Shown: positions 27,267 through 31,147 of the stretch, piece after piece
Numbering within the stretch: position 1 is the stretch's first letter
How the letters are laid out: every line of letters starts with the position of its first letter
Source: Patescibacteria group bacterium
GTDB taxonomy: Bacteria > Patescibacteriota > Minisyncoccia > Phycocordibacterales > JACZSL01
NCBI GenBank assembly: GCA_022561335.1
Contig: JADFRL010000006.1
Location: 1-40,555 of the forward strand
Reading direction: 5' to 3'
Length of the DNA: 40,555 bases
The notes under the pieces: generated by a model
Told to the model about the DNA's origin: nothing
The model's database searches: none
The model's input: only the letters and a program-made list of their open reading frames with translations
Program-made: the position numbers and the translations under genes

Positions 27267-27806
27267 TTAAAATCCCTTGGATTGAAAATTAAATTCGCAG
27301 TGGATATTCCATCTTTTCCCATCGTGTTTAAGAAGTGCGATGGAGTCAAATGAATTTTTAAAATATGGTTTATCATCCTTGATAAAATTCCAAATATAAT
27401 TAAATTTTTGCTGAATATATCTTACTGCTATCGTCGTATGGAGTTTTCTGTTGTTTTCATACCGTCCAAAATTTAACCATTTTAGCTCCATTAATTTCTT
27501 ATTTAAACAATCAATTGTTCTCATCGCCTCATACGATGCATGCACATCAATATAGATAACCTTATTGTTGAAGTGACCAAAACCGCTGAGAGTAATCGTT
27601 GACGATACCTGCTTCTGCGCAAACGCCTCCAAAAGTTTCTCTACCTCGTCAGTAGTCTTGGTTTTAAACGGAGCTTTAAATGTGATATGGGGTGGAATTT
27701 TTAAATGAAGAGGATAAGTATTAAATGTTTCAGAAATTTCCTTGCGGAGCGCATTGTGGTAGGCTCCAGCTTTTCCTCGAATTAAATAACCTATAAAATA
27801 AAGCAT
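27267..27806 (-). CDS. 2'-5' RNA ligase / 2H phosphoesterase family protein
   Basis: Two HxT motifs: IPPHITFKAPF and RKLHTTIAVRY. Confidence 0.85.
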   Translation of the reverse strand: MLYFIGYLIRGKAGAYHNALRKEISETFNTYPLHLKIPPHITFKAPFKTKTTDEVEKLLEAFAQKQVSSTITLSGFGHFNNKVIYIDVHASYEAMRTIDCLNKKLMELKWLNFGRYENNRKLHTTIAVRYIQQKFNYIWNFIKDDKPYFKNSFDSIALLKHDGKRWNIHCEFNFQSKGF

Positions 27807-27848: not shown

Positions 27849-30209
27849 TTATCGTATTTTCCAAACTGCTTTCGACTCAAGTTTCTTAGTAATGTTTTCT
27901 ATAACTCTGTTTATCTCGGTATCAGACAATGTTTTTTCCTGTGATTGAAAGACAAGTCTAAATGCATACGATATTTTCTCATCTTTCTTATACGTATCAA
28001 AAAGTGTAACCCTCACGAGTAACTCTCCTGCTTCTTTTTTTATTGCTTTAAGCACCTCGCCATCTCGTACATTTTTTGGCACCCAGACGGCAATATCACG
28101 CAATACAAAAGGATACATCGATATGATCTGATACAGTATCTTCTTCGGTTCTCTCTCGACACGTCTATACGTTTCAGGCTGTGGCAGTTTTTCAAGAACT
28201 TCATCGAAATTTATTTCAAAAATACCGTCTTTTATTTCCCCCTTTATTTCGACTCTAAGTTCCTTTGAAATCAGTGCAATCATATTCTTTACTTCATCAT
28301 CATCTTCCTCTTTCTTGCCTTTCTTAGTGTTGCGTATACCAAGAGCAAATGAGGTATACTCCTTTTCCTGTTTAAAAACGGTCCCATATCCAAAAATATT
28401 AATCACCTGAAGCCCTAAAAGATCAGCGTAGTGCGCATTAAATTCTAGACTCTCCCCTATCCCCTCCCGTAAATTGCTACGAAGCCAATTCTTGTCAGAA
28501 GCTAAGGCGTTTTCTAGTTCTACTTCTCCACTGCCCCGAAACGTATACGTATACACTTCACTGAAACCTCTCTCTTCAAGCAAGTTTCTGATTTGTTCTC
28601 CATAGTAAAATCGCTTGTTTACAATTACATCTGTATCGAGCTTCCTTAGTGTATCAGATGCAATGTTTTCGTAGCCGTAAATCCGTCCGATTTCTTCAAT
28701 TAAATCTTCCTTAATACGTAAATCGAGTCGTTCAAAGGGCACGGTGATCACATATCGAGCATTATTATCAGTCATGCGCCGATATCCAACAATATTTTTA
28801 AAATCAGGACTCTTATCGAGCTTCTCGATTACCACCTTTCCTTTACTGTCCTTGCCAGATGCATGAATCACTTTCCCCTCTCCTAGATACAAACCGCAAT
28901 GGCTCACACCCGTAGGAACATCAGTCCCGGGCATAAAAATGATCGTCTTGTGATGAATTTGATCTGCATCACCACCAACAGAAAAAACGAGATCCCCCGG
29001 CTGGACGCTCTCTTCATTTATTTTTTGTCCATAGACGAATTGATCGACAGAAATACGGGGAATACCGACGCCGCCTTCTATGAACAGATGGCGCGTGAAC
29101 GAAGAACAGTCAAAGGTCGCTGTTCCGTCATAGGCAAGACTTGAAAAATATTTATATGGAGTTCCTACATAGGCGGGCGCAAGACTCAGTACCGTATCTA
29201 CAGGTCTTACTTTTTTATACTCGAAGCCAAGTCGATCTAAAATATCCTCTACACCCCTTTCCTCCATATGTGAGCCGAGCAACTTATTAATCTCGGTAAT
29301 TGATACTCCCAACTTATAGGGTCCGGGCTTCCGAGGAAAAAAATCAACGTAACCAGCAAGCTTCCCCCCAGCAATATCTAGGATAAGTTCTACCGCATAA
29401 CAAAGCGCTGGCTCTGTCAATTGAACAGGTAGCTCATTTTCAAAACGCGTCGATGCATCAGTGCGAAGTTTCAGTGACTTTGATGTCCTGCGCACACTAA
29501 CCGGATTAAAATTCGCGCACTCTATAATAAGATTCTTCGTAGTACTATCAATTTCAGCAGCCTTTCCCCCTTTAACGCCGGCTATACCTATTGGTCGGCC
29601 GCTTTGACCATCTGTTACAAGCACGTTACTTTCGATGAGTTCATACTTCTCCCCGGTCAACACGGTCAGACTCTCACCCTCTTTTGCGTTCCTAACAGTT
29701 ATCGTGTACCTGCCATTCTTTTGAACCAACTTACCACTGTCAAACGCGTGAAGTGGCTGGCCAAGATCGAACATTACATAATTAGTCGCATCAACAATAT
29801 TATTGATAGATTTTTGGCCAAGTGCCAGAAGATGATCTTTAAGCCAGGTGGGTGTCGGACCGACAGAGACACCTTCAATAACTGCAGCGCTAAAACGTCT
29901 GCACAGTGTATTGTCCTCTACAATCACTTCAAGCAAATTTGTAGTGGGCTCAAGAATTCTATTTTCAGAGAGGATATCCTTTTTAAGCGGGAGATCCAGT
30001 ATCGTCGAAATTTCTTTAGCTATCCCCCGATGTGAAAGACAGTCATGAGCCCGATTAGGCAGCACGTCAACGTCAAGAACTGAATCATTCTCAATTTCTT
30101 CAACCCCTTCAACTTCAAAGGCGTGAAATGTCAATATACGGGCAAGCTTGTCTGACTTGGGAAGCGGTTTGTCAAAGTATTTTTGGAGCCATTGTTTGCT
30201 AACGAGCAT
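27849..30209 (-). CDS. pheT: Phenylalanyl-tRNA synthetase beta subunit with an inserted NlpC/P60 domain
   Basis: B3/B4-like N-terminal half, B5 (SITEINKLLGSHMEERGVEDILDRLGFEYKKV ... YVITVPFERLDLRIKEDLIEEIGRIYGYENI), C-terminal ferredoxin-fold anticodon-binding domain; NlpC/P60 between the two B5 halves. Confidence 0.95.
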   Translation of the reverse strand: MLVSKQWLQKYFDKPLPKSDKLARILTFHAFEVEGVEEIENDSVLDVDVLPNRAHDCLSHRGIAKEISTILDLPLKKDILSENRILEPTTNLLEVIVEDNTLCRRFSAAVIEGVSVGPTPTWLKDHLLALGQKSINNIVDATNYVMFDLGQPLHAFDSGKLVQKNGRYTITVRNAKEGESLTVLTGEKYELIESNVLVTDGQSGRPIGIAGVKGGKAAEIDSTTKNLIIECANFNPVSVRRTSKSLKLRTDASTRFENELPVQLTEPALCYAVELILDIAGGKLAGYVDFFPRKPGPYKLGVSITEINKLLGSHMEERGVEDILDRLGFEYKKVRPVDTVLSLAPAYVGTPYKYFSSLAYDGTATFDCSSFTRHLFIEGGVGIPRISVDQFVYGQKINEESVQPGDLVFSVGGDADQIHHKTIIFMPGTDVPTGVSHCGLYLGEGKVIHASGKDSKGKVVIEKLDKSPDFKNIVGYRRMTDNNARYVITVPFERLDLRIKEDLIEEIGRIYGYENIASDTLRKLDTDVIVNKRFYYGEQIRNLLEERGFSEVYTYTFRGSGEVELENALASDKNWLRSNLREGIGESLEFNAHYADLLGLQVINIFGYGTVFKQEKEYTSFALGIRNTKKGKKEEDDDEVKNMIALISKELRVEIKGEIKDGIFEINFDEVLEKLPQPETYRRVEREPKKILYQIISMYPFVLRDIAVWVPKNVRDGEVLKAIKKEAGELLVRVTLFDTYKKDEKISYAFRLVFQSQEKTLSDTEINRVIENITKKLESKAVWKIR

Positions 30210-30261
30210 GATAGATTCTCTTAACGAATGCGCGTGCAGACGAACTTAAGTCCCAAAGAAT

Positions 30262-30299
30262 CACCACCCAGCGCCTTTCGCGAAAGGCGCTGGGTGGTG
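30262..30299. repeat. Perfect 38-bp palindrome in the pheS-pheT spacer
   Basis: CACCACCCAGCGCCTTTCG|CGAAAGGCGCTGGGTGGTG. Confidence 0.9.
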
Positions 30300-30306
30300 T
30301 CTCGCA

Positions 30307-30348
30307 CCCATGATTGGGGATGCAACTCGTTGTGTTCCCGATCATGGG
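30307..30348. repeat. 42-nt hairpin with a 20-bp stem in the pheS-pheT spacer
   Basis: CCCATGATTGGGGATGCAAC-TC-GTTGTGTTCCCGATCATGGG, fully paired if G.T pairs are allowed. Confidence 0.8.
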
Positions 30349-30356
30349 CAAAGCTA

Positions 30357-31082
30357 TTAGAACTGATTAACAAATCGTAAATCACCATTATGAAAAAGCC
30401 GTACGTCATCGATGCCATACTTCAACATACCCAACCGTTCGATACCGCCGCCAAACGCAAATCCCTGCCATTTTTTTGGGTCAACACCGGCACTCTCAAG
30501 TACAAAAGGATGCACCATGCCGGCACCCATCATTTCAATCCACCCAGTACCTTTACAAATTGAGCACCCCTTTCCGGCACACTTGAAACACTGCATGTCT
30601 ACCTCAACCGCCGGCTCAACAAAAGGAAAATACCCGGGGCGAAACCTGACTTCAGTATCCTCTTTAAGCAACTTGCTGAAAAATATTTCTAACGTACCTT
30701 TGAGTGCCGCAAGTGTCACATCTTCATCGACCACCAAGCCTTCGATCTGGTAAAACTGCGCTTCATGCGTCGCATCAGTCGCCTCATTGCGAAAAACCTT
30801 TCCCGGTACGATGATACGATATGGCGGCTTGTGGTTTTCCATGTAGCGTACCTGAACCGGTGATGTGTGCGTGCGCATGACCATTCCCTTCTGCCCTTTA
30901 ATAAAAAACGTATCCTGCATATCACGAGCTGGATGATCGGGCGGCACGTTCAAGGAATCGAAATTATAATATTCAGTCTCAAGTTCGGGCCCCTCGGCAA
31001 AATCAAACCCCATCTCATAAAAAATAGAGTTCATCTCGCGTATAAGCGCCGTGATTGGATGTACATGTCGTTCCGATGGCAT
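30357..31082 (-). CDS. pheS: Phenylalanyl-tRNA synthetase alpha subunit, short form
   Basis: [88 protein letters not shown]. Starts directly at the catalytic domain. ATG set at 31082. Confidence 0.95.
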
Positions 31083-31147
31083 GGTAGAGACAGTATACAA
31101 AAAATGTGGCTCTGTTGAAAGCTTATTAGCGACATAGAGCGAGTGAA

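Follow-up and report, generated by a model that had tools for sequence, protein, structure and literature searches.

The β subunit of phenylalanyl-tRNA synthetase (PheT) encoded in the window, by which we mean the whole 40,555-nucleotide stretch of contig JADFRL010000006.1 from a Patescibacteria group bacterium (GCA_022561335.1), carries an NlpC/P60 cysteine peptidase domain inside its B5 domain. The insert occupies the same position across a broad range of Patescibacteria, its catalytic triad is conserved, it is under purifying selection, and it survives as a mini-protein encoded next to the genes for single-chain phenylalanyl-tRNA synthetases (PheRS). From sequence comparison, we tentatively favour the reading, which we consider quite possible though short of probable, that the insert is a cytoplasmic, catalytically competent cysteine peptidase docked on PheRS, most likely for cell-wall-type peptides. 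The fusion unites two families for which no cooperation is known and which are normally active on opposite sides of the membrane, and an extra conserved catalytic domain in the reduced synthetase of the streamlined and poorly understood Patescibacteria demands a reason. Comparing the inserted, lost, and detached forms also offers a natural experiment to show which piece of PheT is useful on its own.

The initial annotation of this DNA had proposed an in-frame NlpC/P60 domain within the B5 domain of PheT, and profile, alignment, and structural evidence agree with that proposal. Pfam recognizes B3_4, the C-terminal half of B5 (residues 480-513), CLM, and FDX-ACB in the window protein, together with NLPC_P60 at residues 349-474 (E=3e-15; 56.5 bits, with a cut-off of 23), and the protein scores above the cut-off of the bacterial PheT model TIGR00472 pheT_bact (440.5 bits versus 402.65). 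Alignment places the insertion point in the B5 hairpin, between 'LGFEYKK' and 'RYVITVPFERLD', where uninserted relatives have a turn of one to three residues. In an AlphaFold2 model calculated from an alignment of 49 relatives (mean predicted local distance difference test (pLDDT) score 91.8), a complete NlpC fold sits between the B5 strands at residues 330-334 and 485-490. Foldseek with this model retrieved PheT structures and, separately, NlpC/P60 catalytic domains, with 7cfl (TMt 0.87) and MepS as the best of the latter. The codon coordinates that had been assigned to Cys368, His437, and His449 are arithmetically correct (Table 1), the 12-residue spacing of the two histidines matches that of MepS/Spr, and the lack of a signal peptide is in keeping with the predicted cytoplasmic location. 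The insert is the sole NlpC/P60 match in the window genome.

The window genome is a draft (89.7% complete, 4.27% contamination), which might point to an assembly or binning artefact. However, the same PheT-NlpC architecture occurs in ten independent GTDB genomes, including the closed chromosome CP011215.1, and the RpoB encoded on the window contig shares 80% and 78% identity with its counterparts in the two same-family genomes, against 67-77% in the other genomes compared that gave a near-full-length match. The contig belongs to its bin because the RpoB that it encodes is closest to same-family genomes, and a chimera or misbinning, ruled out by this result and by the independent occurrences, has a negligible probability. 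The view of the insert as a functional domain also holds up: a chimeric contig and loss of the catalytic residues in relatives were both looked for, and neither was found.

What the initial annotation missed is the age and breadth of the insert, its repeated losses, and a detached B5-NlpC-B5 form encoded next to single-chain PheRS genes. An insert-profile match is present in 98 of the 397 genomes of the order, and in 69 of the 397, the window genome included, NlpC lies in reading frames of 756-841 residues, with B3/4 matches in frames of the same length among the matches listed. A sample of the class yielded 10 more long NlpC-bearing frames from outside the order. Eight genomes from other Patescibacteria classes have NlpC in PheT-matching frames of 929-970 residues, which include the region preceding B3/4 that is missing from the window clade. 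The same B5 hairpin is used in every fused sequence that was aligned.

In a tree of NlpC domains, a supported branch (97/82) separates all the PheT inserts and the detached forms from short freestanding cytoplasmic-looking NlpC proteins; a single outgroup sequence, long and uncertain, falls with the inserts. This tree, with its few columns and long outgroups, fits one old insertion without proving it. The window insert and that of L003 are sisters (98/88). Across 122 sequences on the PheT backbone, 14 changes are needed to account for the fused state, which we read as mostly losses of the insert. Distances between inserts correlate with those between PheT backbones (Mantel r=0.60, with 0/2000 permutations as high), and by this measure the insert is co-inherited with PheT. 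A single recent transfer is disfavoured by the co-inheritance and by the depth of the distribution, which indicate an old insertion with repeated loss. Two same-family genomes hint at transfer or replacement of pheT: the PheT of G001 (L165) lacks the insert and groups apart from the window PheT though RpoB agrees, and G002 has a single-chain PheRS. Relatives also encode short freestanding NlpC/P60 proteins of ~145-170 residues (L144-L147, L149-L158, L125, L127, and L131), most without an obvious signal peptide, that may be cytoplasmic. A second freestanding NlpC/P60 family, of ~220 residues and found phylum-wide (L193-L196, L198, L128-L130, and L132), has N- and C-terminal extensions that resemble the B5 halves and is a candidate for kinship with B5. 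In the open-access literature searched (subscription papers and preprints lay largely outside the search), we found no description of a PheT with NlpC or of a single-chain PheRS in bacteria. Short of proof, the PheT-NlpC architecture, its breadth, and the detached form are apparently new; both component families were already known.

Conservation within the insert was counted in 33 fused PheT proteins of the class, 13 detached forms, and 8 PheT proteins of other classes. None of the three sets varies at the catalytic Cys, the first His, or the catalytic Tyr, and the Cys-His-His triad put forward in the initial annotation stands in the fused proteins (Table 1). Tyr352 is present in 33/33 fused proteins and Asp367 in 32/33, and the other-class proteins all keep the Tyr, Asp, Cys, Ser, and first His. 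In unsaturated close pairs, the insert has a dN/dS of 0.11-0.18, similar to that of the PheT flanks; the pair L004/L005 was excluded because its insert was wrongly delimited (326 codons). The insert is under purifying selection, with a constraint equal to that of PheT. Most of the residues that hold γ-D-Glu at the S1 site of YkfC (PMC2954226) have equivalents in the fused proteins: Tyr226 is Tyr in 33/33, Asp237 is Asp in 32/33, Ser239 is Ser in 31/33, and the small residue at 257 is Ser, Ala, or Thr in 33/33. The equivalent of YkfC Asp256, at residue 386, is Ile, Met, Val, Thr, or Arg in 33/33, and the acidic residue that marks the YkfC subfamily is absent. This pattern favours a γ-D-glutamyl-type substrate without the need for a free N-terminus. 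The initial annotation had suggested that the peptidase might be coupled to translation, cell-wall recycling, or aminoacyl chemistry; the kept residues appear to speak for the chemistry of cell-wall-type peptides rather than that of aminoacyl-tRNA.

The detached form occurs where most of PheT is gone. A B3/4 match is absent from 113 of the 397 genomes of the order, and nearly all of the B3/4-less genomes examined for FDX-ACB have this domain in a frame of ~380-440 residues. One such frame, scanned with Pfam, consists of tRNA-synt_2d and FDX-ACB, which is a single-chain PheRS of mitochondrial type; this arrangement of core and FDX-ACB seems common in the order (e.g. L114:5551-6699, L118:5578-6819, and L120:3795-4946). 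In 11 genomes without PheT, an NlpC protein of ~200 residues keeps both B5 halves, and the halves are present in 13/13 detached forms. With its insert removed, PheT as a query still matches the flanks of the detached protein L115 (E=1.4e-6), and an AlphaFold2 model of the detached form (pLDDT 96.0) follows the PheT order of strand-helix-helix-strand, NlpC, and strand-helix. Detached copies are scattered at several places among fused ones in the NlpC tree. In 10 of the 11 genomes without PheT, the detached gene adjoins the single-chain PheRS gene, either divergently or downstream, depending on the lineage. Because some relatives that dropped most of PheT retain the peptidase piece, usually beside the gene for the replacement synthetase, the cytoplasmic hydrolase appears to have been deliberately kept with the protein-synthesis machinery, and the gene linkage favours some tie of the peptidase to PheRS. 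In G137 and G177, which have an uninserted PheT elsewhere, the detached B5-NlpC gene is instead flanked by genes for a CAP-domain protein and for VanW/PG_binding_4 (L116:3146-6620 and L117:3826-7286), a cell-wall-like neighbourhood. A gene for a Peptidase_C39_2-like (papain-like) protein adjoins the detached gene in several genomes (L113:5538-6161, L118:4295-4834, L124:4418-4942, and L126:3000-3629), and gyrB is often close.

NlpC/P60 enzymes are papain-like amidohydrolases with a Cys-His-His triad. If the insert is a PheRS-docked peptidase, it would work in the cytoplasm, with Cys368 attacking an amide and His437 and His449 completing the triad, and B5 would serve as a dock that holds the peptidase on or near PheRS. 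The substrate would be a small wall-type peptide with a γ-D-glutamyl amide, as for a muropeptide-recycling or precursor-trimming peptidase, because most of the S1 residues with which YkfC holds γ-D-Glu are kept. Mur ligases are present in 10/10 carrier genomes tested, so wall peptides are plausibly available, and Chlamydia, whose genome is likewise reduced, has a cytoplasmic NlpC enzyme for the recycling of wall peptides (PMC9928106). As to why such an enzyme would be sited on PheRS, we can only guess at a local supply of amino acids or a coupling between wall turnover and charging.

Several observations weigh against this reading. No wall-recycling gene was identified beside pheT in the window, the VanW/CAP cluster context is found in only one detached lineage (G137/G177), and a wall-peptide role leaves the link to PheRS unexplained. 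Within the active site, the equivalent of YkfC Trp228 is not conserved in the PheT inserts, a family-specific loop before His437 could alter specificity, and the equivalents of Asp237 and Arg255 are both Ser in 7/13 detached forms. A wider proposal, possible but rather doubtful, is that PheRS in a large part of the Patescibacteria is a two-function machine, in which a cytosolic B5 peptidase would process either a wall-type peptide or some aminoacyl conjugate and so tie the charging of phenylalanine to wall turnover, to the supply of amino acids, or to charging fidelity, a tie important enough for the B5-peptidase module to outlive the rest of PheT when the synthetase shrank to one chain.

The gene linkage fits better with a new editing or quality-control domain, hydrolysing wrongly charged, D-modified, or N-modified aminoacyl-tRNA(Phe) in cis within PheT and in trans as detached B5-NlpC, which we nevertheless regard as unlikely. 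INS/ProXp and AlaX are known cis and trans editing domains of aminoacyl-tRNA synthetases, and the inserted and freestanding copies, the 10/11 adjacency to PheRS, and the repeated loss resemble their pattern; papain-like cysteine hydrolases can, moreover, cleave esters. However, the S1 residues look suited to γ-D-Glu, and PheT in the carriers has its own editing site, with the B3/4 residue equivalent to E. coli H265 kept in all of them and the equivalent of E334 in 25/33. Because these editing residues are retained in most carriers, the insert seems to be no replacement for lost B3/4 editing, an idea equally unsupported by the distribution, in which the insert is not enriched where B3/4 is lost (11/113 genomes without B3/4, versus about 69/284 with PheT). 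In eight carriers (L089, L090, L095, L098, L099, L101, L106, and L139), Ser replaces the editing Glu equivalent to E. coli E334 and a new Asp is found near position 208, which suggests a rearranged B3/4 editing site (in the window protein, residues 208 and 230).

The NlpC fold could also serve as a scaffold or bind a ligand, with no catalytic role. There are NlpC/P60 domains that lack catalysis (RipD, 4jxb/4lj1), and the insert is not essential because it has been lost many times. A structural or binding role of this kind is distinctly unlikely given that the Cys, His, and catalytic Tyr are invariant even in the detached forms, where the changes in the third residue are to Gln. It is improbable that the domain merely hitch-hikes, doing unrelated cytoplasmic work with PheT as a convenient carrier and its adjacency to single-chain PheRS a relic of an old pheST locus. 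Such adjacency could survive in-situ replacement of pheST, and the G137/G177 gene lies in its VanW/CAP cluster apart from an uninserted PheT, but elsewhere the adjacency persists while orientation varies by lineage, and both B5 halves are kept in the 13 detached forms. By analogy with MccF, a repurposed relative of LD-carboxypeptidases, the insert might instead destroy peptide-like or aminoacyl-nucleotide inhibitors of PheRS, to which its patchy distribution, its linkage to PheRS, and the presence of a wall-peptidase fold in a synthetase setting would all be suited. We consider such a protective enzyme highly improbable: the long co-inheritance inside PheT is unlike that of a mobile resistance gene, and we know of no such PheRS inhibitor.

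The synthetase around the insert is itself streamlined, with PheT lacking B2 and PheS lacking its N-terminal coiled coil, in the window (27849-31100) and in most relatives, whether or not the insert is present. A tie between the insert and loss of the PheS coiled coil was considered and found no correlation, with carriers and most non-carriers alike lacking the coiled coil. Directly downstream of pheT is a gene of the 2'-5' RNA ligase/2H phosphoesterase family (27267-27806, minus strand; Pfam E=1.8e-15).

Table 1 Features of the window pheS-pheT region and of the NlpC/P60 insert.
Feature	Position in window	Strand	Evidence and remarks
pheT, phenylalanine--tRNA ligase beta subunit, 786 residues	27849..30209	-	Continuous open reading frame; without B2 domain; NlpC/P60 inside B5
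NlpC/P60 cysteine peptidase domain, residues ~335-481	28767..29207	-	Pfam, 11-carrier alignment, AlphaFold2 model, Foldseek
Catalytic Cys368 codon (putative)	29106..29108	-	Invariant: 33/33 fused PheT, 13/13 detached B5-NlpC, 8/8 other-class PheT
Catalytic His437 codon (putative)	28899..28901	-	33/33 fused, 13/13 detached, 8/8 other-class
Third triad residue His449 codon	28863..28865	-	Fused 32/33 His (1 Tyr); detached 11/13 His (2 Gln); other-class 6/8 His (2 Asp)
B5 N-terminal half, residues ~297-334	29208..29321	-	Alignment to uninserted PheT; strand 298-302, helices 304-311 and 317-327, strand 330-334
B5 C-terminal half, residues ~482-513	28671..28766	-	Pfam B5 positions 34-67 at residues 480-513; strand 485-490, helix 500-511
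pheS, alpha subunit, directly upstream of pheT	30357..31100	-	Without N-terminal coiled coil

The window protein resembles bacterial PheT (TIGR00472; PDB 1pys and 3pco) in its score against the family model, in the order B1, B3/4, B5, CLM, and FDX-ACB, and in the E. coli H265 editing residue. In contrast, the window clade lacks B2 and has NlpC/P60 in the B5 hairpin. The insert shares its fold, Cys-His-His triad, and His-His spacing with the NlpC/P60 D,L-endopeptidases (PF00877, MEROPS C40), such as Acd24020 (7cfl), MepS/Spr, CwlO, and RipA, but it is predicted to be cytoplasmic, it sits within a tRNA synthetase, and its catalytic His is preceded by ~13-15 additional residues. YkfC, or dipeptidyl-peptidase VI, which acts in wall-peptide recycling, also in Chlamydia, is matched by the fused forms at Cys238/His291/His303 and at the S1 residues Tyr226, Asp237, Ser239, and small-257. 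Unlike YkfC, the insert lacks Asp256, which YkfC requires for the free N-terminal L-Ala, varies at Trp228, and has B5 where YkfC has SH3b domains. The INS/ProXp and AlaX editing domains similarly occur in both inserted and freestanding versions with a link to a synthetase, although their fold and chemistry are unrelated to NlpC and the NlpC-bearing PheT retains its own editing domain. Finally, the neighbour of the detached form, with tRNA-synt_2d and FDX-ACB in ~383 residues, is built like the mitochondrial-type single-chain PheRS (FARS2), but the Patescibacteria enzyme is bacterial and is accompanied by a separate B5-NlpC gene.
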